From NCBI RefSeq assembly GCF_004348735.1, contig NZ_SMKT01000025.1, positions 1 to 64,000 of the forward strand: 64,000 nucleotides of DNA, written 5' to 3'. This stretch comes from Actinomadura sp. KC06. Lineage in GTDB: Bacteria > Actinomycetota > Actinomycetes > Streptosporangiales > Streptosporangiaceae. Position 1 is the stretch's first letter; every line of letters starts with the position of its first letter. Shown here piece after piece: positions 6,626 to 35,670 of this stretch. The position numbers and the translations under genes were made by a program. The notes under the pieces are model-generated. The model did not search any database and was not told the origin of the DNA. It saw nothing but the letters and a program-made list of their open reading frames with translations.

Positions 6626-9240
6626 CTCGTGACCTGGAGCCGGCGGACGGGCGGATCGCTCAGCTCGACGACGTCGTCGTCGGCGAAGCAGCGCAGCCAG
6701 TACGGCCCGGACGCGTCCGGCGCGGCCAGGGACAGCTCCCCGGGGACCGGCACCTGCTCCCACGCGCCGAGCGTCTCGCCGTCGGCGGCGCGGTGCGGCA
6801 TGACCCGGCCGGTGCGCAGCACCAGCGACAGCCGCGCCACCCGCAGCGGGCGCGACGACGTCAGCCTGATCGTCAGCGACCGCCGCCACGGCGGGCCCGA
6901 CCGCAGCACGTCGTACCGGACGATCGCGCGCGCCGCGACGGCCGCCGTCACCGGCGTTCCCGTCACCCGGGAGCCGCCGACGGTCCCGGCCGCGGCGACC
7001 GACAGCTCGACGGGCTCGTCCTCGGGGACGGGCAGCCGGATCCCGCCCTGGGTGTCGTAGGCGGCGCGGGTCACGGTCTCCGCCGGCGGCGGATCGGCCG
7101 CCTGCGGCGCGTCCCGGCCGATCCGGTAGGCGACGTCGACCTCCGCGACGTCCGGCGGCCAGTCGAACCCGACGTGCACGTGGTCGCCGCGCCGCTCGGC
7201 GACCAGGCGGCGCGGCGGCGGCAGGTTCACGTGCCGGTGGTACGCGCCGATCGCGGCGCCGCCCTCCGCCACCGACACCGCGAGCAGCCACCCGCTCGCC
7301 CCCGGCCGCACCGAGAGCCCGCCGGGCACCGGCGTGCACGCGAGCCGCCGCGTCTCCCGCCGCACCTCCTCCAGCGGGACGAGCGCGCTGCGCGGCCACG
7401 GCGGCGGACCCTCCGACAGCACCAGCTCGACCGTCCCGCTCCCCGGCGGGTCGAACCGGACCGTGACCAGCCCCGGATCGGACGGATCGGTCCCGGCGGC
7501 CAGCTCGTACACCGGCTCGGGCGCCGCGCTCGGCGTGACCGACGCGCGCACCCCGTCCGTCACGACCTCGCGGCCGGACGGGTCGAGGTAGACGGCGGCG
7601 ATCCGGTAGTGGTGCGTCCGGCCGTTGGGCACGCGTTCGCGGAACCCGTCGCGTCCCGCCGGGACGGCCGTCCCGTCCCGGACGACGACGACCCGCGCCG
7701 CCTCCGCCGGGCACCGCCACCGCCCGGTGACCTGGCCGTCCCCGGCGAGCAGCTCGACCTCGCCCGGCTCGGGCCGCACGACCACCGGGCCCGCCACCGC
7801 CGGCGCGGCGACGGCGTCCCCGCGCAGGGCGAACACCGCGTAGTACACGGGCGCGTTGACCGGCGGCCGCTCGTCCAGCGCCCCTTCCATAGGCTGCCCG
7901 TCCCGCACGTCGCGGGGCGCGCGGCCCGCTCGCCGCACGACCTGGTAGGCCACCTCGCCCGCGGTGGACGCGGACGGCTCCCACGAGAGCCGGACCACGG
8001 CCCCGCCGTCCCCGGCGACGTCCACGTCCGCTTGGACGCCGGGAACCGGACGCGGCGGCAGGCGGCGCTGCTGGCCCTGCGCGCCCGGGAGGTCGCGGAC
8101 GAGCCGGAGCGCGTCGTCGAGGAGGCGGTGCGCGCGGTCCGGGTCGGGCTCGGCGGCGGCGGTCTCGCGGAGGCGCAGCGCCGTGTCGAGCCGGTGCCGG
8201 GCCTCGGCGGCGAGGACCTCCTCCTCCGACGGCCCGCCGCCGGACGCGGGCGGGACGTTCGCGGCGTCCGCCAGCTCCGCCGCCGCGAACACCTCCCCGG
8301 CGTCGAGCAGCGCGCGGAGCCGTCCCGCGAGACCGCCGCCCGGGCCCGTCTCGCGGACGACGGCGAACACCATCCGGCGGGCGTCGCCCGGGTCGATGCC
8401 GAGATCGTCGACGGCGTAGCGCAGCAGCGCCCGCTCGGACGCCCGCTGCCGCAGCCGCTCGCGGAGCCGGTCCACGACGTCGTACAGCACCAGCTCGGGG
8501 AGCGGGGCGTCCGACCGGAGCGCGGCGAGGATCGTGTCGGCGTGCGTGGTGCTGGTGTCGCGGCTGCGGCGCGCCCATTCGGCGGCGACCGCCGCGACGG
8601 CGTCCTGGTCGAGCCGGAGGTTCCTGCCGGGCGCGGCGAACCCGTCCAGCGGCCGGATCGGGCCGGTGAGCCGGGCGCCGAACACGAAGTCGGCGAGGTG
8701 CCGGGCGCCGAGGACGTCCAGGGACTCCTGCACCTTCCGGTACGCCGGGTAGGGCGCGGCGGACGGCAGCGCGTCCGGCTCGCGGATCTCGATCCCGTCG
8801 GCGGCGGCGTCCCGCTCCAGCTCGGCGCGGGTGACGCCGGCGGTGCGGGCGATGCCCTCGACCTCGGCGGGCGTGGCCATCTTCAGCGTCCCGGCCGCGT
8901 CGGCGAGGCGGGCGCGGGCCTCGGCGCGGCGCCGCTCGGTGCGCTCCCGCCCGCCGCGCAGCCGCGCCTCCAGCGGGCGCAGGTCGCCGCGCTCGGCGGC
9001 GGCGAACAGCGGCGCCAGCTCGCGGTGGTCGGCCTCCAGCCGGTCGATCAGCTTGCGGTACTTCAGCTGCCCCCGCGCCCGCCGCCAGCACTGCCGGACC
9101 TGCTTCACTTGCGCCGCGACCACCGGCCCTGTGAGGGTGTCGGGCAGCGCGTAGCGGACGCGCAGGTCCTCGGGAGGCTGGTCGCCCGCCGCCCGGGCGG
9201 GCTCCAGGACCTCCCGCCGGTAGTCGTCGTCGAACGCCAC
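6622..9240 (-). CDS. Large chaperone-operon protein with helical N-terminus and FN3-like beta modules
   Basis: 872 residues from a GTG at 9240-9238, with GGGAGG about six bases upstream; 14 bases follow the Hsp70 stop. Residues 1 to about 400 are charged and probably helical (for example YRKLIDRLEADHREL and many ER/AR runs). The C-terminal half is proline/valine-rich with repeats of the type VVRLSWEPS...YQVVRRAG and HHYRIAAVYLDPSG, which look like fibronectin type III or related Ig-fold modules. No signal peptide or catalytic motif is seen. It may be a scaffold or client-recognition subunit linking the Hsp70/GrpE pair to the GTPases. I do not recognise a specific family for the N-terminal half. 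Confidence 0.6.
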   Translation of the reverse strand: MAFDDDYRREVLEPARAAGDQPPEDLRVRYALPDTLTGPVVAAQVKQVRQCWRRARGQLKYRKLIDRLEADHRELAPLFAAAERGDLRPLEARLRGGRERTERRRAEARARLADAAGTLKMATPAEVEGIARTAGVTRAELERDAAADGIEIREPDALPSAAPYPAYRKVQESLDVLGARHLADFVFGARLTGPIRPLDGFAAPGRNLRLDQDAVAAVAAEWARRSRDTSTTHADTILAALRSDAPLPELVLYDVVDRLRERLRQRASERALLRYAVDDLGIDPGDARRMVFAVVRETGPGGGLAGRLRALLDAGEVFAAAELADAANVPPASGGGPSEEEVLAAEARHRLDTALRLRETAAAEPDPDRAHRLLDDALRLVRDLPGAQGQQRRLPPRPVPGVQADVDVAGDGGAVVRLSWEPSASTAGEVAYQVVRRAGRAPRDVRDGQPMEGALDERPPVNAPVYYAVFALRGDAVAAPAVAGPVVVRPEPGEVELLAGDGQVTGRWRCPAEAARVVVVRDGTAVPAGRDGFRERVPNGRTHHYRIAAVYLDPSGREVVTDGVRASVTPSAAPEPVYELAAGTDPSDPGLVTVRFDPPGSGTVELVLSEGPPPWPRSALVPLEEVRRETRRLACTPVPGGLSVRPGASGWLLAVSVAEGGAAIGAYHRHVNLPPPRRLVAERRGDHVHVGFDWPPDVAEVDVAYRIGRDAPQAADPPPAETVTRAAYDTQGGIRLPVPEDEPVELSVAAAGTVGGSRVTGTPVTAAVAARAIVRYDVLRSGPPWRRSLTIRLTSSRPLRVARLSLVLRTGRVMPHRAADGETLGAWEQVPVPGELSLAAPDASGPYWLRCFADDDVVELSDPPVRRLQVTR

Positions 9241-25290: not shown

Positions 25291-26361
25291 TCAGTAGATC
25301 TCGACGCCGTACACCTGCATCGGCTCGGTGACGGGCTGGAAGAACGTCGTCCCGCCGGACGAGCAGTTGCCGCTGCCGCCGGAGGTGAGGCCGAGCGCGG
25401 TCGTCCCGGCGAACAGCGAGCCGCCGCTGTCGCCCGGCTCGGCGCACACGTTGGTGCGGATCAGGCCGCTGACGCTGCCCTCCTGGTAGTTCACCGTCTG
25501 GTTGAGCGCGTTGACGCTGCCGCTGTGCACCTGGGTGGTGCTGCCGCTGCGCGTCACCCGCTGCCCGACCGTCGCGTTGGCGGCGCTGGTGATGTCCTGG
25601 GTCCCCTGGCCGTAGAGGTGGACGGCGCCCTGGCTGTCCGAGGGAGTGGACGAGTACTTCACGATGCCGTAGTCGTTGCCGGGGAAGCTGCTGCCCGTGA
25701 CGGTGCCGAGCGTCTGCCCGGAGCTGTCCGTCCACGTCGAGCCGATGTTCGTGCAGTGCCCGGCGGTGATGAAGAAGTACTCACTGCCCTTCTTGACGTT
25801 GAAGCCCAGCGAGCAGCGGGATCCGCCGGTGCGGATTGCCTCGCCGCCCATGATGAACTTCTGGAACTTCCCGGCGACCTGCTCGGTCCGGACGGCCGCG
25901 CCGTGCTTGGCCGCGGCGGCCTTGACCTTCTGCAGCTTCGCGCCGGTGACGGTGCTGTCCATGGTGAGCAGCACCTGGTTGGCTGCCGGGTCGACGGCCC
26001 AGGCGGTGCCCGGGATCGTCGCGTCCCGCTTGAGCGCGGACATGACCTTCTTCAGGTACGAGCCGTTGCGCGCGACGGTCTGCGGGACGGCGCCCGCGTC
26101 GCGCACGGTCTGCGCGGCCTTGGCGTCCGTGACCGTGACGACGAGCTTGCCGCCCTTCAGGTAGGAGCCCGCGGACCGGGCGCCGAGCTGCTTGGCGAGC
26201 GCCGTCGACGTCTCGCCGGGGCCTGCGGGAGCGGCGGCGGCCACGGGAGCTGCGGCCGACGTCGTGGACATGGTGGGAGCGACGGCGAGCACGCCCGCCA
26301 CGAGACCGGCCGTCGCCGTTGGCACGGCGACGGTGAGCACACGCCTCTTGGTGATCTTCAA
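25291..26361 (-). CDS. Streptogrisin-like S1 family serine protease with propeptide
   Basis: 356 residues from ATG 26361. A signal peptide (residues about 1-38) is followed by a propeptide of roughly 140 residues of alpha-lytic type ([20 protein letters not shown]...). The mature domain starts near IMGGEAI. The catalytic triad is visible: TAGHC (His), FPGNDYGIV (Asp) and [12 protein letters not shown] (Ser). Paired cysteines around the His and Ser loops fit the family's disulfides. It is secreted and self-activating. A paralogue lies upstream at 26562, and the two share an upstream motif. Confidence 0.93.
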
Positions 26362-26442
26362 CTATGCCTCCACGGGGGGTTGGGCGCACCCTGCTGGTGC
26401 ACCGGAGGTCCTGGGACATGGTGGTGGAAATGTCAAGGCAGA

Positions 26443-26466
26443 CGTAAGACGCAGAAAGTGACCAAT
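26443..26466 (-). promoter_or_regulatory. Motif shared with the paralogous protease promoter (copy 1)
   Basis: CGTAAGACGCAGAAAGTGAC followed by CAAT, about 80 bases upstream of the first protease. The same string, with one deletion and two substitutions, lies at 27373-27395 upstream of the second protease at a similar distance. It is probably a promoter element or a regulator site common to both genes. Confidence 0.5.
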
Positions 26467-26561
26467 TCAGGACAGAGCGCTTGTCACCCCTGACGTTGGC
26501 TCCGTGGTCAGCGCAGGAAAACGCGGTCTGCACCGGACCAAAGGAACCGATTCGGCAGCTG

Positions 26562-27296
26562 TCAGTAGACCTCCAATCCGTAGGCGTCGAGCGGCTCCCC
26601 GATCGGCTGGACGAACGACGTCCCGCCGGGGCAGCGGCCTTCGGCGCCCACGATGATCCCGATGGCGAGGTGGTCGGCGAAGACCGGTGCGCCGCTGTCG
26701 CCGGGCTCGGCGCACACCGAGATGCGGATCAGGCCGGTGACGGCGCCCTCCGCGTGGTTCACCGTCTGGTTCAGCGCCCTGACCTGGCCGGTCCGGGTGC
26801 CGATGGGGGACGTGACGGTCACGTGCTGGCCCACCTGGGGAGTCGCGACGCCGATGATGTCGTAGAACTCGCCGTTGACTCTGACGCCGCCCTTCGTGTC
26901 CCCCGGAGTGGAGGCGTAGCGGACGATGCCGTAGTCGTTGCCGGGGAAGCTGCTGCCGCCGGTGATGCCGAGCGTCTGGCCGGAGCCGTCCGTCCAGGTG
27001 CTGCCGTTTCTGGCGCAGTGGCCCGCCGTCAGGAAGAAGTACGCGTCTTTCCCCTTGAGGTTGAACCCCAGCACGCAGCGGGATCCGGCGGTGTAGATGG
27101 CATCGCCTCCCAGGGCCGGGGCGGCGCTGGAGGCGGTGGCCGGGACGGTGGCGGTGGCCGGGACGGTGGCGGTGGCCGGGACGGTGGTGGACGCGTGCGC
27201 GGCGGGAGCGGCCGGAGCGGTGGCGATCGACGCCGCCAGCAGCCCCGCCATCGCCGCGGCGGTGGTGCCGCGCGCAGGCGCGGGTAGGGACTTCAC
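26562..27296 (-). CDS. S1 family serine protease without a propeptide
   Basis: 244 residues from GTG 27296 behind TTGGAGG. A signal peptide (about 1-33) is followed only by a short repetitive linker (TVPATA repeated) and then the mature fold beginning GGDAIYTAGSRCVLGFN. The His (TAGHC), Asp (FPGNDYGIV) and Ser ([12 protein letters not shown]) residues are all present; the serine motif is GDSGAP rather than GDSGGS. Streptogrisin-type enzymes normally carry a propeptide of over 100 residues needed for folding. Here it is absent, so this enzyme must fold unaided, be helped in trans by the neighbour, or be inactive. It is a diverged tandem copy of the protease at 25291. Confidence 0.82.
   Translation of the reverse strand: MKSLPAPARGTTAAAMAGLLAASIATAPAAPAAHASTTVPATATVPATATVPATASSAAPALGGDAIYTAGSRCVLGFNLKGKDAYFFLTAGHCARNGSTWTDGSGQTLGITGGSSFPGNDYGIVRYASTPGDTKGGVRVNGEFYDIIGVATPQVGQHVTVTSPIGTRTGQVRALNQTVNHAEGAVTGLIRISVCAEPGDSGAPVFADHLAIGIIVGAEGRCPGGTSFVQPIGEPLDAYGLEVY
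27135..27188. repeat. Three tandem 18-bp units encoding the protease linker
   Basis: GGTGGCCGGGACGGTGGC occurs at 27135, 27153 and 27171 (the last ends in T). On the minus strand each unit encodes one in-frame six-residue TVPATA repeat, which occupies the place where a propeptide is expected. Confidence 0.85.
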
Positions 27297-27642
27297 GGTG
27301 CCTCCAAGGGAGCGGGCGCGCCCTGATGGCGCGTCGGAGGTCACGGTCATGCTGAAAGAATGCTGAACATGGCGTAAGGCAAGAAAGTGACAAATCGGTG
27401 AGGTCAGGATTGTCACAATGGGTGCCTGGCCGTATACCCGAGCGTCACGGCGGCCGTTGTACGGGAGGCGGGCGGGCCGCGGAAGCGGCGTCCCGGCCCC
27501 TGCCGGCCCGACCGATTGGGACTCTGCGAACGCCGAAAAAGAGGCTCGCACAATGGACCAATTATGCCGCCGGGCGCATTCGTCCCGAAGGCCGGGCCGG
27601 GCGGTAGTGACGCCGCGATGGGCGGGACGGGAGAATGGTCCG
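27297..27642. other. Intergenic region between divergent protease and cyclodeaminase genes
   Basis: This 346-base stretch holds the second protease promoter region, including the shared motif at 27373-27395, and the leader of the cyclodeaminase-like gene. No additional gene or RNA is evident. Confidence 0.5.
27373..27395 (-). promoter_or_regulatory. Motif shared with the paralogous protease promoter (copy 2)
   Basis: CGTAAGGCAAGAAAGTGACA followed by AAT, about 77 bases upstream of the GTG of the propeptide-less protease. It aligns with 26443-26466. Conservation outside the coding region while the genes have diverged strongly suggests a functional site. Confidence 0.5.
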
Positions 27643-28608
27643 GTGACGCTCCTTTTGACCCGTTCCGACCTTGAAGCGCTCCTCGACCCCGCCGGCTGCC
27701 TGGACGCGCTGCGCCGCGGCTTCACGGCCGGGGAGGGCGAGGCCGTGGCGCGCCGGGTGGTGGGGAAGCTGCCGGGGCAGGGCACCGCGACGGCGCTGCT
27801 GCCGGGCCTGGTCGAGGAGATCCCCGCCTACACGGTGAAGGTCAACGCCAAGTTCCCGGGGAGCCGTCCGGCGCTGCGCGGCGTCGTCTGCCTGCACGAC
27901 CTCGGCACCGGCGAGCTGCTGGCGCAGCTCGACTCGGCCACCGTCACCGCGTGGCGGACCGGCCTCGCCGCCGCGCTCGGCACGCACGCGCTGGCCCGTC
28001 CCGACGCGGACGCGGTCGCGGTGATCGGCGCCGGGGCGCAGGCGGAGCTGGTCATGCGGGGGTTGCCCGAGCTGCGCGCGGTGCGCCGCCTCATCGTCTG
28101 CGACCTGGACGCCGGCCGGGCCGCCGCGTTCGCCGGGCGGCACGGCGAGCGGCTCGGCCTGGCCGGGGATGACGCGGTTTCCGTCGCGGCGGATCCGCGC
28201 GCCGCCGTCGCGGACGCCGGGATCGTCGTCATGGCGACCTGGGCGCGCCGCCCGATCCTGCACGCCGCGGACGTCGCGAGCGGGACGCACATCACCTCCC
28301 TCGGGGCGGACGAGCCCGGCAAGGCGGAGCTGTCCGCCGACCTGCTGGAGGGCGCCCGCGTGGTCGTCGACGACGTGCCGCTCGCCGTGGAGATGGGCGT
28401 GCTGGCCGGTGCCGGACTCGACGTCAAGCACGCCGCCGGGACGCTCCGCGACCTGCTGTGCGGCCAGGTGCCCGGACGGGTGAAGGGCAGCGAGATCACG
28501 GTCTACGCCCCGGTCGGGCTTCCCTGGCAGGATCTCGCGGTGAGCTGGGCCGCCTACCGCGCGGCTCGCGCGGCGGGCGCGGGGACAGAGTTCGACTTTC
28601 TTTCTTGA
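27643..28608 (+). CDS. Ornithine cyclodeaminase/mu-crystallin family protein
   Basis: 321 residues from GTG 27643. The fold is clear: a conserved N-terminal KVNAKFPG lysine segment, TVTAWRTGLAAALGTHALA, and the dinucleotide-binding VAVIGAGAQAELVMRGL, followed by VIVDDVPLAVE-type and MATWARRPILH segments. Members cyclise ornithine or lysine, or reduce imines with NAD(P)H. The substrate here cannot be told. The in-frame sequence upstream of 27643 is low-complexity and not likely coding. Confidence 0.87.
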   Translation: MTLLLTRSDLEALLDPAGCLDALRRGFTAGEGEAVARRVVGKLPGQGTATALLPGLVEEIPAYTVKVNAKFPGSRPALRGVVCLHDLGTGELLAQLDSATVTAWRTGLAAALGTHALARPDADAVAVIGAGAQAELVMRGLPELRAVRRLIVCDLDAGRAAAFAGRHGERLGLAGDDAVSVAADPRAAVADAGIVVMATWARRPILHAADVASGTHITSLGADEPGKAELSADLLEGARVVVDDVPLAVEMGVLAGAGLDVKHAAGTLRDLLCGQVPGRVKGSEITVYAPVGLPWQDLAVSWAAYRAARAAGAGTEFDFLS

Positions 28609-28899: not shown

Positions 28900-29505
28900 A
28901 TGATTCGGATTTTGCTCGCCGAGGGGGCCCCCCTCCTCCGCGGCGGGTTAGTCGCGTTGTTCGATGATGTGAAAGACCTCGATGTCGTCGCGGCGGTCGG
29001 CTCCGGTGATCAGGTGCTCGCGACCGCGCGCAGACGGCGGCCCGACGTCGCGCTGATCGACGTCGGGCTGCCCGGCCTGGACGGCTTCGCCGCGGCGTGC
29101 GCGATCCGCGAGGCCGTGCCCGAATGCCGCACAGTCCTGCTGTCGGCCCGGCGGCGGACCGGCGACCTGCGCCGCGCGGTGGCCGCGCGGGCCGCCGGCC
29201 TGGTGCTGAAGGACACCTCGCCCGGCGACCTGGTGGACGCGATCCGGCGCGCCGCGAACGGGTCGCGTGTGATCGACCCCGACATGGCCTTCACCGAGCT
29301 CGGCTCGGTGCAGAGCCCGCTCACCGAGCGGGAGGTCGAGGTGCTCGCCCTCGCGTCACGGGGTGCGTCCGCGGCGCAGATCGCCGAGGACCTCGTCCTG
29401 ACGATCGGCACCGTTCGCAACCATCTGTCCCGCATCAACCGGAAGGTCGGCGCGCAGAACCGGATCCACGCCGTCCGGATCGCCGAGGAGGCCGGCTGGC
29501 TCTGA
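28900..29505 (+). CDS. NarL/FixJ-type response regulator of the lanthipeptide locus
   Basis: 201 residues from ATG 28900 behind AGGAGA. The receiver domain has the phosphorylation aspartate in ALIDVGLPG (about residue 54) and lysine in VLKDTSP, but the usual acidic pair near the N-terminus is reduced to AEGAPLL, so phosphorylation may be altered. The C-terminal LuxR helix-turn-helix is PLTEREVEVLALAS...GTVRNHLSRINRKVGAQNRI. Its position next to the AmfS-like cluster is the same as RamR/AmfR, the activators of SapB/AmfS operons (established knowledge). No sensor kinase is adjacent. Its 3' end overlaps the convergent ABC transporter gene by 150 bases. Confidence 0.85.
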   Translation: MIRILLAEGAPLLRGGLVALFDDVKDLDVVAAVGSGDQVLATARRRRPDVALIDVGLPGLDGFAAACAIREAVPECRTVLLSARRRTGDLRRAVAARAAGLVLKDTSPGDLVDAIRRAANGSRVIDPDMAFTELGSVQSPLTEREVEVLALASRGASAAQIAEDLVLTIGTVRNHLSRINRKVGAQNRIHAVRIAEEAGWL

Positions 29506-31194
29506 GTTCCAGCGGCCGATGAGGTCGCGGTAGAGAGGGGACACCGCGGGCAGGTCGGCGTGCCGTCCGATCTGCGCGCGGGTCCCGTCCAGCACCAGGA
29601 CGCGCCGCGCCCGCACCGCGGAGCTGATCCGGTGCGCGATGACGATCAGCGTGCCCGGGCGCCGCGCGAACGCCTCCTCCGCCCGCGCCTCGGCGGCAGC
29701 GCCGAGCCGGTAGGCCGCCTCGTCCAGGACGACGACCGGCTGCGGCGCGAGGTAGGCGCGGCACAGCGCGATGAGCTGCCGGTCGGCCTCCGACAGGTCC
29801 GCCGGGACGACCGGCGCGCCGTACCCGCCGAGCTCATCGACGAGCCGCGCCAGCCCGACCTCGTCCACGGCCCGCTCCACCTGCTCCGGCGCGGCGTCCG
29901 GCGCGTAGTAGGCGAGGTTGTCGCGCAGGGAGCCGCTGAACACGTACGCCTCCTGCGGGATGAGCACCCGCCGGTCCGGGTCGCCGGGCGGGAGGCCGTC
30001 CACCAGCACCTCGCCGGCGGTGGGGGAGACCAGGCCCGCGATCAGGGCGGCCAGCGTCGACTTCCCGATCCCGCTGGGGCCGACCACGGCGAGGTGGTCG
30101 CCGCGCGGGACGACGAGGTCGAGGTCCTCGATCACCGGCCGCGCGCCCTCCCCGTACGCGAACGACACCCCGCGCAGCTCGACGGCCGGCGCGTCCGCGG
30201 CGGGGGCCGCCGCCTCCGGCCGGGCGGGCGGCGCGGGCGCGCTCGTCTCCAGGATGCGGGCGAGCGTCACCGCCAGCCGCAGCCCGCTGCCGCCCATGCC
30301 GTGCACGAGCGTCCGCAGCGCGGGCTGCAGCCCGTGCAGGACGTAGGTCAGCGCGCCGATCAGGACCCCCGGCGTGGCGCCGCGCCGCATCAGCCACGGC
30401 GCCGCCGCCAGGACGAGCAGCAGCGGCAGCCATCCGCTCACGGCGAGCGACACGGCGCGCAGCGCCGCGAACCGCGCCACCGCGCGCCCCGCCGCGGCCT
30501 GCGCCTCCACCGACGCGCCCATCTCGGCGCGCAGGATGTCCTCGCCGCCGCAGGCGACGGCGTCGCGCAGGCCCTCGGCGAGCGCCGTGGTGCGCTCGGC
30601 GATGTCCTCCTCGCCGACGACCAGGGCCCGCTGCCGGACGGCCGCCGCGCCGAACACCGCGCCGAACAGCAGCAGCCCGAGCACCAGCGGCGGCACCACC
30701 AGCAGTGCCACCTCGGGCATCAGGGTCGCCAGGCCGATCAGGGCCGCACCGGTCGCGAACAGGAACCCCCGCACGACGACGAGGAGCCCGCCGAAGGTGT
30801 CCCGGACGATCTCCACCTGGTGCGTGAGCCGCGCGACCGCCCCCGTGTCGGGCCGCCCGCCCATCGACCGGCGCAGCGCCCCGTCCGCGACGCGGCGGAC
30901 GAGGTCGTCGCGGAACGGCTCCACGATCGCGGCGAGCGCCGGATAGAGGCGGCGGCTGCCGAATGCCCCGACAGCCGCCGCCAGGGCAAGGACGCCGAGC
31001 CAGATGACCGCCTCTTTCGTGCGCCCGGTCCGGAACGCGTCGACGGCCTCGCCGACGGCGCGTCCGAACACCGCCGTCGGCACCGCCTCGACCGCCGACC
31101 ACGCGGCGGCGCGCGCCACCGCGCGCGGCTGGGCCCGGACCGCGCCGCCGACCGTCTGCCGCAGTACCCGCGCGGCCTCCCGCCTGCTCCTCAC
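29356..31194 (-). CDS. ABC exporter half with intact Walker motifs but degenerate signature (AmfA/B-like)
   Basis: 612 residues from GTG 31194, overlapping the upstream stop as GTGA. Residues 1 to about 330 contain transmembrane helices. The nucleotide-binding domain has an intact Walker A (GPSGIGKST) and Walker B (VVVLDEAA), but the signature LSGGQ has become LSEADRQ. The C-terminal 45 residues or so, after SPLYRDLIGRW, are unusual: they read through antisense to the response regulator gene. Together with the next gene it probably exports the AmfS-like peptide. Confidence 0.85.
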   Translation of the reverse strand: MRSRREAARVLRQTVGGAVRAQPRAVARAAAWSAVEAVPTAVFGRAVGEAVDAFRTGRTKEAVIWLGVLALAAAVGAFGSRRLYPALAAIVEPFRDDLVRRVADGALRRSMGGRPDTGAVARLTHQVEIVRDTFGGLLVVVRGFLFATGAALIGLATLMPEVALLVVPPLVLGLLLFGAVFGAAAVRQRALVVGEEDIAERTTALAEGLRDAVACGGEDILRAEMGASVEAQAAAGRAVARFAALRAVSLAVSGWLPLLLVLAAAPWLMRRGATPGVLIGALTYVLHGLQPALRTLVHGMGGSGLRLAVTLARILETSAPAPPARPEAAAPAADAPAVELRGVSFAYGEGARPVIEDLDLVVPRGDHLAVVGPSGIGKSTLAALIAGLVSPTAGEVLVDGLPPGDPDRRVLIPQEAYVFSGSLRDNLAYYAPDAAPEQVERAVDEVGLARLVDELGGYGAPVVPADLSEADRQLIALCRAYLAPQPVVVLDEAAYRLGAAAEARAEEAFARRPGTLIVIAHRISSAVRARRVLVLDGTRAQIGRHADLPAVSPLYRDLIGRWNSEPAGLLGDPDGVDPVLRADLPVDAGQMVANGADRQDEVLGDLRRGRTP

Positions 31195-32882
31195 GCGGCA
31201 CCCCCGAAGAGCGCGCGGTAGCCGGGGTCGCGCCAGAGTTTCGCGTGCGGGGCCAGGGAGCGGACGCGGCCGTCCTCCAGCCACGCGACCAGGTCGGCGC
31301 GGGCCGCCGTCGACGCCCGGTGCGTGATGATCAGGCGGGTGCGGCCCGCGAGCCGGTCCAGCAGCGCGTCGGTGATCTGCAGCTCGGTGACTGTGTCGAG
31401 GCTGGACGTCGCGTCGTCCAGCACGAGGACGCGCCCGGCGTGCGCGAACGCCCGCGCGAGGCCCATCCGCTGCAGCTCGCCGCCCGACATCGGCGCGTCG
31501 GCGAGCGGGGTGGCGTACCCGCGCGGGAGGCGGCGGATGAAGTCGTCGGCGCGGGCGGCCCGCGCGGACTCGCGCACCCACGCGTCCGGCGGCCGCGACG
31601 GCCCGAACGCGAGCGCGTCCTGGACGGTGCCGCCGAACAGCGCGGGCCGGGCGAACGCGTAGCCGATCTCGCGGCGCAGCGCCTCCCGGGTGAGATCGGG
31701 GAGGGGCGTCCCGTCGACCAGGACCTCCCCCTGGTCGGGGTCGGCGAGGCGCCCGGCGAGCGCGGCGAGCTCCGACGTGCCGGACCGCCCGGTGACGGCG
31801 ACGGCGAGGCCGCCGGGGACGGTCAGGTCCAGGCCGTCCAGCGCGCCGCCGGCGGCGGTGACGCCGCGGAAGTCCAGCCGGCCGGGGCCCGCCGGGAGGG
31901 TCTCGGCGCCGTGGCCGGGCGCCGGGAGCGCGAGGACCTCGGCGGCGCGGGCGGCGCCGGCGCGGGCGCGGGCGAGGCGCAGCAGCTGGGTCAGGACGGG
32001 CCCGAACCCGGCGGCGAGCCCCGCGTACTGGACGGTCGCGACCAGCTCGCCCGGCGTGAGCCGTCCGGCGGCCAGCTCCGCGCCCGCGACCCCGACGGCC
32101 GCGATCTGCAGGAGCAGCAGCGCCAGCAGCCCCCGCGCCGCGATGCCGCCCTGGACCCGCCACATCGTCTCGCCCTCGGCGCGCAGCCCGGGCAGCGGCT
32201 CCAGGACGCGTCCGGTCTCGCGGTCGACCGTTCCGGCCGCGGCGATCGTCCGGCATCCGGCGAGGGCCTCGGCGAGCCGGCCCGCGATCGTCCCCTGGAC
32301 GGTGAGGTAGCGGTGCGCGGTCGCGCTGATGTCGCGGACGAACGCGCGCATCAGCAGCGCGATCACCGGCAGCGCCACCGCGATCGCCGCCGCGACCCGC
32401 CAGTCGATCAGGAACAGCGCGACCAGCGCCCCGGCGGCGGGCACCAGGCCCACGGCCGCCTCCGGCGCGGCGGCGGGCGCCACCCCGGCCTCGGCCGCGC
32501 CGCCGACGACGCGTCCGGCGACGTCGCCCGGCGGGACGCGCAGCGAGGGACCGACCGCGAGGACGTGCCTGACCAGCGTGTGCCGCAGCCACGCCGTCGA
32601 GCGTGCCGCCGCGCAGCCGGTCGCGAGCTCCGACAGAACCTCCGCCACGGCGGACGCCACGACGAGCGCGACGCACGGCCACACCGCGGCGGCGGCCGGG
32701 GCCCCGCCCGGCGGCACCGCGTCGATCGCGCGGGCCAGCGCGTACGGGAGCAGCACGGCCGCGGCCGCGTCCGCCAGCGCGGCGGCGGCCACGAGCGCGG
32801 TCCAGCCGCGGGCGCGCCCGGCGGCGCGCAGCAGCAGCCGGTTCGCCCCGGCCGTGGGGTTCGCGGCGGGAAGGGTGGTCAT
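31191..32882 (-). CDS. ABC exporter half with intact signature but lysine-less Walker A (AmfA/B-like)
   Basis: 563 residues from ATG 32882; the upstream in-frame ATG lacks a ribosome site. Transmembrane helices cover residues about 25-300. In the nucleotide-binding domain the Walker A reads GRSGTSELA, where the GKS/T lysine is lost, while the signature MSGGELQRMGLARA is intact and Walker B is VLVLDDATSSLD (the catalytic glutamate replaced by Asp). This is the mirror image of the partner protein's defects, so a heterodimer would have one competent ATP site and one degenerate site. Confidence 0.87.
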   Translation of the reverse strand: MTTLPAANPTAGANRLLLRAAGRARGWTALVAAAALADAAAAVLLPYALARAIDAVPPGGAPAAAAVWPCVALVVASAVAEVLSELATGCAAARSTAWLRHTLVRHVLAVGPSLRVPPGDVAGRVVGGAAEAGVAPAAAPEAAVGLVPAAGALVALFLIDWRVAAAIAVALPVIALLMRAFVRDISATAHRYLTVQGTIAGRLAEALAGCRTIAAAGTVDRETGRVLEPLPGLRAEGETMWRVQGGIAARGLLALLLLQIAAVGVAGAELAAGRLTPGELVATVQYAGLAAGFGPVLTQLLRLARARAGAARAAEVLALPAPGHGAETLPAGPGRLDFRGVTAAGGALDGLDLTVPGGLAVAVTGRSGTSELAALAGRLADPDQGEVLVDGTPLPDLTREALRREIGYAFARPALFGGTVQDALAFGPSRPPDAWVRESARAARADDFIRRLPRGYATPLADAPMSGGELQRMGLARAFAHAGRVLVLDDATSSLDTVTELQITDALLDRLAGRTRLIITHRASTAARADLVAWLEDGRVRSLAPHAKLWRDPGYRALFGGAA

Positions 32883-32944: not shown

Positions 32945-33055
32945 TTACAGGCAGATGGTGACACTGTGGGAGCTGTGGCAGAGAATGCTCAGGCTGCTGT
33001 TACCGCCGCCGCCGCCGTTCTCGCTCACCATCCCCTGAAGGTCGAGAAGCGCCAT
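32945..33055 (-). CDS. amfS-like: AmfS/SapB-like class III lanthipeptide precursor
   Basis: 36 residues from ATG 33055, AAAGGAGG about seven bases upstream (the site lies in the last codons of the synthetase gene). The leader begins MALLDLQ, the conserved LanKC recognition opening of AmfS-type peptides, and is followed by a glycine run (14-18). The core has two ring motifs: SSLSILC (Ser20, Ser23, Cys26; S-x-x-S-x-x-C) and SSHSVTIC (Ser28, Ser31, Cys35; S-x-x-S-x-x-x-C), ending in Leu36. The first ring is one residue shorter than usual. Class III enzymes dehydrate the serines and link them to cysteine as lanthionine or labionin. In the SapB family the product is a surface-active peptide aiding aerial growth. 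The gene is too short for routine callers. Confidence 0.93.
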   Translation of the reverse strand: MALLDLQGMVSENGGGGGNSSLSILCHSSHSVTICL

Positions 33056-33060
33056 GTTCT

Positions 33061-35670
33061 TCACCTCCTTTCGGGCTGGATAGAGGTGGCCGCCGTGAGG
33101 GTTCCCACGGGGAGCTCATCGGACTGAGTGGAGCGAACAGGGGGGTCGTCCCCCCACTGGAGCCCGGTCGGCCGGAAGAACGGGAGGCCGGGGGCCGGGT
33201 CGTGGAGCGCCGCGCCCAGGGCCAGCAGGACGCCGGCGGTGCCGGTCGCCAGGTCCATCGACAGGCGGTACATGTGCTCGCCCGGGAACGCGAGCCCGTC
33301 GCCGTACGGCAGCGCGTGCCAGGCCAGGTCGCGGACGTGCCCCGCGACCCGCGGGTCGTCGCGGCCGTGGCGGGCCAGGTAGAGCAGCATCCCGGCGCGC
33401 CCGCCGAACAGGCTCGGCTGCGCGTAGTACCGCGACATCGCGGCGACGCGGATCGCGCGACGCGCCTCCTCGAACTCCTCGTCGGAGCGGAGCGCGAGGT
33501 ACTCGTCCAGGACGAGGCCGATCCCGACGCTGCCGCGGCCGAGGTACGGGAACACCCGGTTGCCCTGGTCGACGTGCAGCGCGCCGTTGTGGTCGGTGAC
33601 GCAGGCGGCGAGGTCGCGGCGCAGCGCGGCCGCGGCGTGGTCGAGCAGGGCCGCGTCGCCGGTCCGCTCGTAGGACCGGATGAACATCAGCGCCGCGCCC
33701 GCGCCGCCGTGCATCAGGCCGGGGCGGGCGCTCGGGCCGTCCGCGGCGTGCGACAGGCGCTCGGCCACGATCTCGGCGGCGCGGCGCGCGTCGTCGTGCA
33801 GGGACGTCTCGCCGGTGGTGTCGGCGAGGTCGTCCAGGGCGAGCGCCATGCCGGGCAGCCCGCCGTACAGGTCGTCGCCGAGCCGCTCCCACCGCTCGTT
33901 CAGGCAGTGGCCCGCCGCGGTGAGCGCGTCCTCGCTCCGGCCGAGGCGGGCGAGGACGTACGCGGCTCCGAGCAGCCCGTCGTACAGGCCGATGCCGGTG
34001 CCGCGCTTCGGGTCGGCGGCCCGCGCGGCCAGCCACTCCTCGTGCGCGGGGAGGCGGCCGGCGCCCGTCGCGCCCAGCGCGTACAGGACGCCCGCGGCGC
34101 CGTGCGCGAGCCCGAGCGACGCGCCGTCGAACTGCTCCGGGTCGCCCGGGAACAGCCGGTCGGCGCGGTCCAGGGTCGCGCTCGCGCGGATCGACCGCGA
34201 CAGCGACTCCCTGGCGCGTTCCCAGCCCCGCGCGTCCGGGACGAACCCGGGCGCGGCCACCGGCTCGGCGCCCCGCGTGATCCGCTCCACCGCCTCGTCG
34301 AGGAACGGCCGCGGCACCGGGAAGTTGGCGGCGATCAGGTCGGCGAGCTGCGGCGCCTTGCCCCGGTCGATGACGAACAGCGTGGTCAGCGGGACGAACA
34401 GCGCCAGCCGCAGGCACGCCAGGCTGTAGAGGTCGACCTCGGCGCCGCGCCGGTCGGGCGGGGCGAGGAACGCCGGGTTGGCGAGGGTCTGCCGGCCGCC
34501 GTCGGACGCGGGCGCCGCCGTCTCGAAGTCGATCAGCGCGGCGGAGTCGTCCGGGCGGACCATGACGTTGAACATGTGCAGGTCGTTGAACACGACGCCG
34601 CGCTCGTGGATCGCGGCGACCACCCGCTCGACGCCCTCGTGGACGCGCAGCGCCCATTCGGTGTAGGCGGCGGTCTTTTCCGGGTCAGGGTCGGGATCGA
34701 GCATCGGATGCCGTTCCGCGAAGAACGTGTTGAGCGTCCGCCCCTCGATGAACTCCTGCACGAGGAAATGGTGCTCGCCGAGCGTGAACCAGTCGAGTGC
34801 GGCGGGCACGCCGTCGATTCCGTCGAGTTTCCGGAGAACGTCGCGTTCCCGTTCGATGCGCGTTACCGCGTCCGCTCCGTCGGCGGCGAGGCCGGCGTGG
34901 GGGCGTCCCTCTTTCAGGACGACCTTCCGTCCGGAACGGGTATCGGTCGCCTCATAAACGCCCCCGCCGTTGGAGAAATGCAGGGCCTTGGTGATCTGGT
35001 ACGGCAGATCGGTCGTCGTCGTCGCGCCGCGCGCCTTGAGATGCGGCTCCAGGCAGGCCGGGACGGTCACCCATCCGGGGACGGAGAAGACCGGCTCGCG
35101 GCGGTCGGGCACCAGTTCCCCGTCGCCGTTCTCCAGCGCGGGGACGAGCTTGCCCTTCTCGTCCAGGCAGCGCCGCTCGGCGAAGCCGCCGTACCTGACG
35201 TGCAGCGGCCCGTCGCCTATGCGCAGGTCACTGAGGATGTAGGGGCCGGGCAGGCCGTTCAGCCGGGCGCCGAGCTCGGCCAGGACGCGCTCCAGCTCGC
35301 GCTCGTCCTCGGGGTAGATCGTGACGAGCTTCCCGCTCGCCCCGCGCGGCGCGTACTTGGCGTTCCGCATCCGGAGCGTGCCCGGGCCGCGCAGGTGCTT
35401 GAACTCGATGTCGTTGTCGACGCAGTACTCCCAGGCGCCGGAAAGGATCTCCGCGGCGCTTTCCGCACACCCGGAGACATGCACTTTCCAGCCCTGGAGG
35501 GGAGCGCGGCTCTGCGGCGGATCGTAGACGACCCACTCGTCGCCGAAAATCTGCTCCCAGCCCGCCGGAAGGTCACGTTGAGTGATTTCGAAGTCCGTGC
35601 GGCGGGTGACGGGTGGCGCATCGTAGAACAGCTTGTCCGCGAGGCAGTAAAGCTCATACCCCTTGTCCAC
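33061..35670 (-). CDS. lanKC: Class III lanthipeptide synthetase LanKC
   Basis: 869 residues from GTG 35670 behind AAGGGA. The N-terminus MDKGYELYCLADKLFYD is typical of RamC/AmfT. Residues 1 to about 200 form the lyase region, about 220-480 a Ser/Thr kinase-like domain (VVLKEGRPHAG lysine, GVVFNDLHMFNVMV catalytic loop, LIDFETA metal site) and about 500-869 a LanC-like cyclase. The zinc-binding CHG of class I/II/IV cyclases is replaced by LMHGGAG, so the cyclase is the zinc-less class III form. It phosphorylates and eliminates serines of the adjacent precursor and closes the rings. Its stop codon overlaps the precursor's ribosome site, which couples synthesis of the two. Confidence 0.95.
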   Translation of the reverse strand: MDKGYELYCLADKLFYDAPPVTRRTDFEITQRDLPAGWEQIFGDEWVVYDPPQSRAPLQGWKVHVSGCAESAAEILSGAWEYCVDNDIEFKHLRGPGTLRMRNAKYAPRGASGKLVTIYPEDERELERVLAELGARLNGLPGPYILSDLRIGDGPLHVRYGGFAERRCLDEKGKLVPALENGDGELVPDRREPVFSVPGWVTVPACLEPHLKARGATTTTDLPYQITKALHFSNGGGVYEATDTRSGRKVVLKEGRPHAGLAADGADAVTRIERERDVLRKLDGIDGVPAALDWFTLGEHHFLVQEFIEGRTLNTFFAERHPMLDPDPDPEKTAAYTEWALRVHEGVERVVAAIHERGVVFNDLHMFNVMVRPDDSAALIDFETAAPASDGGRQTLANPAFLAPPDRRGAEVDLYSLACLRLALFVPLTTLFVIDRGKAPQLADLIAANFPVPRPFLDEAVERITRGAEPVAAPGFVPDARGWERARESLSRSIRASATLDRADRLFPGDPEQFDGASLGLAHGAAGVLYALGATGAGRLPAHEEWLAARAADPKRGTGIGLYDGLLGAAYVLARLGRSEDALTAAGHCLNERWERLGDDLYGGLPGMALALDDLADTTGETSLHDDARRAAEIVAERLSHAADGPSARPGLMHGGAGAALMFIRSYERTGDAALLDHAAAALRRDLAACVTDHNGALHVDQGNRVFPYLGRGSVGIGLVLDEYLALRSDEEFEEARRAIRVAAMSRYYAQPSLFGGRAGMLLYLARHGRDDPRVAGHVRDLAWHALPYGDGLAFPGEHMYRLSMDLATGTAGVLLALGAALHDPAPGLPFFRPTGLQWGDDPPVRSTQSDELPVGTLTAATSIQPERR

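Follow-up and report, generated by a model that had tools for sequence, protein, structure and literature searches.

The 64,000-nucleotide stretch of Actinomadura sp. KC06 analysed here (contig NZ_SMKT01000025.1, forward strand, positions 1 to 64,000; hereafter the window) carries on its minus strand, at 32945-33055, a 37-codon open reading frame (ORF) for the 36-residue peptide MALLDLQGMVSENGGGGGNSSLSILCHSSHSVTICL, with its stop codon at 32945-32947. We conclude that this gene is very probably a precursor gene (LanA, RamS/AmfS-like) of the SapB/AmfS type of class III lanthipeptides, and that its short first ring motif is a conserved trait of the lineage lying within the known range of that motif. 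Family and cluster can be read directly in the sequence; ring chemistry, processing and function are what we infer from it.

The precursor gene and its family

Both family models recognised the peptide over their whole length. NCBIfam NF033212 (SapB_AmfS) gave 42.4 bits against a curated cut-off of 25 (E=5.4e-11, model positions 1-42 of 42), and Pfam PF19402 (RamS) gave 45 bits against a curated cut-off of 24.3 (E=1.4e-11, positions 1-44 of 44). With NF038159, another class III model, the precursor stayed below the cut-off (21.9 versus 30 bits). Next to it, at 33061-35670 on the same strand, lies the gene of an 869-residue RamC-like lyase-kinase-cyclase (LanKC), scoring 1088 bits with NF038151 (cut-off 575) and matching RamC_N, Pkinase and LANC_like, so that an enzyme with the lyase, kinase and LanC-like domains of class III adjoins the precursor. 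The first-pass annotation of the window had proposed an AmfS/SapB-like precursor beside a LanKC, and these scores bear it out.

The leader motif LLDLQ (residues 3-7, 33035-33049), a putative LanKC recognition site, recurs in relatives; it fits the L-x-L-Q leader motif of class III lanthipeptides named in PMC7268733, and L-L-D-L-Q itself is given as leader motif in PMC13380574. A run of five glycines (G14-G18, 33002-33016), variable in length among relatives, precedes the ring region. The first ring motif is S20-x-x-S23-x-x-C26 (32978-32998), with two residues between the second serine and the cysteine (spacing two), and the second is S28-x-x-S31-x-x-x-C35 (32951-32974), with spacing three.

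A strong ribosome-binding site, AGGAGG (33064-33069, minus strand), stands 8 bases ahead of the ATG (33055), within the end of the LanKC gene. Since the LanKC stop codon (33061-33063) comes straight after this site, the two genes may be translated together by translational coupling. A GTG at 33064 was considered as the start and rejected, because it is overlapped by the AGGAGG, whose distance of 8 bases points to the ATG.

The gene is conserved with a bias towards third codon positions. Between the window gene and the other 36-codon orthologue DNAs (17 distinct DNAs, the window's own among them, aligned without gaps), 167 base differences were counted: 97 at third, 46 at first and 24 at second positions. 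Across all orthologue DNAs, 73 codon changes were synonymous and 51 nonsynonymous; the numbers became 68 and 28 when two DNAs were excluded that are misaligned in an ungapped count, having one Gly fewer before and one more after the first Cys.

Comparison with relatives

To place the peptide, 212 distinct precursors parsed from 247 loci were used. Family score, the MALLDLQGM pattern and resemblance to the window peptide decided which loci were taken, and the set is biased toward the window's lineage. The parser required a leader motif, accepted Ser or Thr, and counted as spacing three any motif readable as both two and three. Some genomes are present in two overlapping record sets, and each peptide sequence was counted once. 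Peptide reading of the named-genome stretches covered 80 of 83 first, and the three others were added to the 247-locus set; the 80 stretches gave 91 peptides, two of them truncated where a contig or locus ends and one (L092) matching by chance.

The peptide shares with the SapB/AmfS family (RamS and AmfS; NF033212, PF19402) the LLDLQ-type leader, the two ring motifs and the gene order of LanKC, two ABC (ATP-binding cassette) transporters and LuxR-type regulator. It differs in the spacing of ring 1 (two versus three), in its length (36 residues, versus a median of 42 among the 212 precursors collected) and in the end of its core, CL versus TTCN. The leader had been called very short, which the comparison contradicts: 19 residues precede the first ring serine, the median is 21 (range 16-27), and 41 of the 212 precursors have 19 or fewer. 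The five-glycine run is there as described, and is ordinary, runs of at least five glycines occurring in 58 of the 212.

A SapB-family match was found in 40 of the 65 genomes of Actinomadura. When the peptides were read, ring 1 proved to be SxxSxxC in 27 of these 40 genomes; in the remaining 13 the motifs are of the SxxTx3C or SxxSx3C form, or the core is labyrinthopeptin-like. A. soli 14C53 (L115) has an identical peptide, a LanKC 93% identical to the window's and the same layout. Peptides of the same type with one to several residues changed, for instance I24L or V32I, are found in A. mexicana, A. chibensis, A. latina, A. rubrisoli and others. The named species with a short first ring further comprise A. 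terrae, A. macra, A. litoris, A. barringtoniae, A. formosensis, A. fibrosa, A. pelletieri, A. bangladeshensis, A. geliboluensis, A. syzygii, A. spongiicola, A. roseirufa and A. alba, and two Sinosporangium species have it as well. The contraction of the first motif by one residue relative to SapB, read in the first-pass annotation, is thus real at the sequence level and kept in relatives.

Spacing three in ring 1 is found close by, in Thermomonospora echinospora (L106) and A. craniellae (L085). Thermomonospora echinospora and its relatives (L106/L209, L204, L207) share a core of the form [DE]SSxSLLLCDKHSS[HQ]STxLCL, and the LanKCs of L204 and L209 are 67-69% identical to the window's over their full length; the differences are the spacing of ring 1 and two extra residues (DK) between the rings. 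In the wider taxonomic family, a family match was present in at least 195 of 341 genomes and at least 34 of 68 genera, and a search with the window peptide as query returned relatives in 41 of 338 genomes and 6 of 68 genera.

Within the 212 precursors, SxxSxxC occurs in ring 1 in 31 and in ring 2 in 19, counts that reflect how the loci were picked and are not natural frequencies. The 31 comprise 29 two-ring peptides, one three-ring peptide and one with an alternative TxxSx4C reading. A class-wide search (394 genomes) yielded, from its 30 best loci, 33 distinct peptides, of which 26 are three-and-three, 7 have the short ring second and none has it first. On these counts, spacing two is not rare in this taxonomic family, spacing three is the common state, and a short ring in first place belongs mostly to this lineage.

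Ring spacing and ring size

The first-pass annotation took three residues in both rings as the state of known SapB-type peptides. This is right for the SapB/AmfS/durhapeptin subgroup: two SXXSXXXC motifs are described for durhapeptin and its SapB/AmfS group in PMC13380574, and Sx2Sx3C is called characteristic in PMC7268733. As a general rule it is not supported, spacing two being frequent in relatives. For class III as a whole, the motif S-(X)2-S-(X)2-5-C is given in a figure legend of PMC8960859 and in the introduction and results of PMC11251773, the latter also noting a predicted TxxSxxC peptide. Ring sizes made by LanKC enzymes vary widely, since the labionin of noursin joins residues 3, 7 and 15 (PMC10206099). 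The further claim of a new ring size is therefore not supported as it was put: spacing two falls within the printed range, published labionin sizes vary, and relatives with spacing two are frequent. No product structure with a spacing-two ring, no motif spelled SxxSxxC and no fragment of these cores was found in the accessible part of the open-access literature, which makes for weak absences.

In atoms, a lanthionine ring spanning n residues has 3n+4 (by arithmetic), that is 13 for n=3, 16 for n=4, 22 for n=6 and 25 for n=7. A thioether ring of 13 atoms has the size of nisin ring B. The identification of the peptide was right, and the claim of novelty mostly was not: the peptide is real and mostly ordinary. 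What stays modestly interesting is a conserved, lineage-bound contraction of ring 1, with Thermomonospora relatives at spacing three.

History of the short ring

A tree of the C-terminal part of LanKC (FastTree) was built with 193 rows, after removing 29 duplicates, 11 rows in which the C-terminal part was incomplete, 5 whose ring types were mixed and 2 for which no precursor had been parsed. On it the short-ring-1 type needs 3 changes (shuffled mean 37.7) and the short-ring-2 type 2 changes. A second tree of 83 chosen rows (IQ-TREE, quick) gave 4 and 2 changes respectively; it contains a single row for each distinct short-ring peptide, together with the Thermomonospora-like rows and 38 randomly chosen others, 6 long branches having been set aside beforehand, and the window peptide is represented in it by its A. 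soli counterpart. The Actinomadura rows cluster with those that have an LLDMQGM leader (genus groups g3 and g5), and spacing-three Thermomonospora-like rows fall among them. Change counts of this kind do not tell gain from loss; a gain plus a loss, or two gains, both fit the history of the short first ring.

The ring sequence NSSLSLLC (NSSLSILC in the window peptide) is ring 1 here. Cores resembling SNLSLLACTPHENSSLSLLCG, from further genera of this taxonomic family (L014, L017-L019, L023, L024, L026 and others), carry NSSLSLLC too, there as ring 2. The LanKCs of the two kinds of peptide fall in different supported clades, which suggests convergence or the shuffling of a ring unit. Taking these observations together, we give an even chance to the following picture: the Actinomadura type would have a contracted first labionin or lanthionine (a 13-atom loop if C26 joins S23), arisen by loss of one residue relative to the Thermomonospora-like relatives, and NSSLSLLC would have arisen separately as ring 2, making a recurring small-ring subclass of morphogens.

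Proposed working and alternative readings of the rings

As we propose, the LanKC would bind the LLDLQ leader and phosphorylate Ser and Thr of the core, and would then remove the phosphates to leave dehydroalanines. It would close two rings, each from an S-x-x-S...C motif, as lanthionine or labionin. Compared with SapB, the thioether loop of ring 1 would lack one residue, with 13 versus 16 atoms if C26 adds to S23, or 22 versus 25 if its partner is S20. Export would fall to the two ABC proteins, the leader would probably be trimmed by a protease from outside the cluster, and the RamR-like regulator would control the cluster. The product, a small amphiphilic peptide, would act as a surface-active morphogen for aerial hyphae, the role proposed for SapB in PMC13380574. 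The gene probably helps Actinomadura to raise aerial hyphae.

Several points weigh against this assignment. The genus has no general need of the peptide, since 25 of its 65 genomes gave no family match. The pair of tandem SxxSxxxC motifs that marks the SapB subgroup is found in ring 2 and not in ring 1; we take this as no bar to membership in the wider SapB/AmfS family, because 50 of the 212 relatives have one spacing-two ring and the printed range runs from two to five. Lanthionine and labionin cannot be told apart from the LanKC sequence, ring 1 might stay open or use S21, and a SapB-like function outside Streptomyces is an assumption.

One alternative keeps the family and changes the ring: the short first motif would form no contracted labionin, C26 pairing otherwise, for example in a lanthionine with S20 alone or with S21. 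We hold this to be possible, at somewhat more than one chance in three. Both kinds of ring occur in the family, SapB and AmfS being reported with lanthionines and rochsin A and durhapeptin with labionins (PMC13380574), and a change of one ring residue made NorKC form a lanthionine instead (PMC10206099). Against it, position 21 is S or T across the genus, and both motif serines and the cysteine are kept. This argument is partly circular, those three residues being what defines the type, and is compatible with either kind of ring.

We consider it unlikely that the contracted motif stands for a new class of ring, one that would mark a functionally distinct group of morphogens and be more than a minor change of one residue. 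The type is clade-bound on both LanKC trees, its peptides vary little inside the Actinomadura clade, and a short ring 1 is missing from the 33 peptides of the class-wide search. However, the cluster has the usual layout and enzyme types, spacing-three relatives (L204, L209, L210, L085) lie inside or beside the clade, and spacing two occurs in other lineages and, in 7 of those 33 peptides, in ring 2. With the printed motif range covering spacing two, and with relatives of that spacing frequent, we rejected a new ring class. That the gene is a chance small ORF or a degenerate copy is hardly conceivable, given its family scores, its ribosome-binding site, its third-position bias and the fact that 27 Actinomadura genomes have kept the peptide; nothing was found in favour of this reading.

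The SapB/AmfS-type assignment adds candidate SapB-like morphogens in many species of Actinomadura, outside Streptomyces. Related clusters that differ by one residue in ring 1 offer a comparison set up by nature, showing how tightly LanKC enzymes and the function of the morphogen are tied to the size of the ring. The overall picture of class III lanthipeptides is unchanged.

The surrounding gene cluster

On the minus strand the order is LanKC, precursor, ABC transporter 1 and ABC transporter 2, followed by a convergent LuxR-type response regulator on the plus strand. The ram/amf layout is ramC-S-A-B plus ramR, and all its members stand together in the window.

Among the solved relatives of the LanKC are 7wj6 (kinase part) and the whole enzymes 8w7a, 8sam, 8sao and 8sap, the last three being entries named LanKC. 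When its translation was read by eye, the kinase showed NDLH..N and a DFE form of the DFG motif. The cyclase is without the zinc-binding Cys/Cys/His, as expected for class III; this is a reading by eye against the published account of ThurKC, whose cyclase lacks the zinc set (PMC10604976).

ABC transporter 1 (RamA/B-like, 31191-32882, minus strand) matches ABC_tran and ABC_membrane and likely starts at the ATG at 32882, with GGAG ahead. ABC transporter 2 (29356-31194, minus strand) has a GTG start overlapping the stop of transporter 1, and matches ABC_tran without a separate membrane-domain match. The regulator (RamR/AmfR-like, 28900-29505, plus strand) matches Response_reg and GerE. Among the matches listed, 21 of the 27 SxxSxxC genomes of the genus have it at a distance of about 3.8-4.0 kb to the precursor; in the remaining 6 the contig ends next to the precursor on the regulator's side. 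The 3′ ends of transporter 2 and of the regulator overlap by about 150 bases (29356-29505). An assembly fault is an unlikely cause, because the same overlap is seen in A. soli (L115), where the ABC stop ends at 6675 and the regulator frame runs from 6526.

A regulator 86% identical to that of the window was also found in genome G280 (C513:3473-4075), which has no SapB-family match. In that genome the precursor may have been lost or changed, or may fall within an assembly gap.

Candidate leader proteases

Two tandem alpha-lytic/trypsin-type proteases lie beside the cluster, at 25291-27785; they could be mere neighbours or include an extracellular leader protease. The alpha-lytic-type protease at 25291-26361 was rejected as a dedicated leader protease and kept as a lead, homologues being present in all 65 genomes of the genus. 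Some of these, 73-77% identical, come from genomes that lack a SapB match (G235, G255, G276, G271 and G272 among them). Among the matches listed, 19 of the 27 SxxSxxC genomes have the orthologue of this protease no more than 12 kb from the precursor; in 2 the distance is about 22 kb, and in 6 the two genes are on different contigs. AplP-like M1 peptidases trim several class III leaders, according to PMC10885120. Five Peptidase_M1 matches were found in the genome of strain KC06, none of them on the contig of the window and none shown to be AplP.

Other precursors

Different precursors were met in the same searches. Genome G232 has a second, different spacing-two precursor, MALMDLQGLTVENSDHPGRSSLSVHCGSRASVTICDS (L075), accompanied by a separate LanKC that is 70.5% identical to the window's. 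In two further cases within the genus (L069, L070) the genome encodes a precursor with the leader MENNGLLELQ, the core being SYVSLLLCFSYASVLLCL in L069 and slightly different in L070; the best local alignment of their LanKCs to the window's ends at residue 467, and the frames continue with a cyclase-like end. A Micromonospora precursor (L151, GGDGGCGCGGSRASLLLC) has an extra CGC between the leader and the usual SapB-like core. Finally, three genomes of the genus (L072, L073, L074) contain labyrinthopeptin-like double precursors. They resemble the window peptide in being of class III, with an LELQ/LDLQ leader and a LanKC, but their cores are of the ECC...CC or ECC...CGC form, ending in CC or CGC, and their LanKCs are 46-47% identical to the window's.
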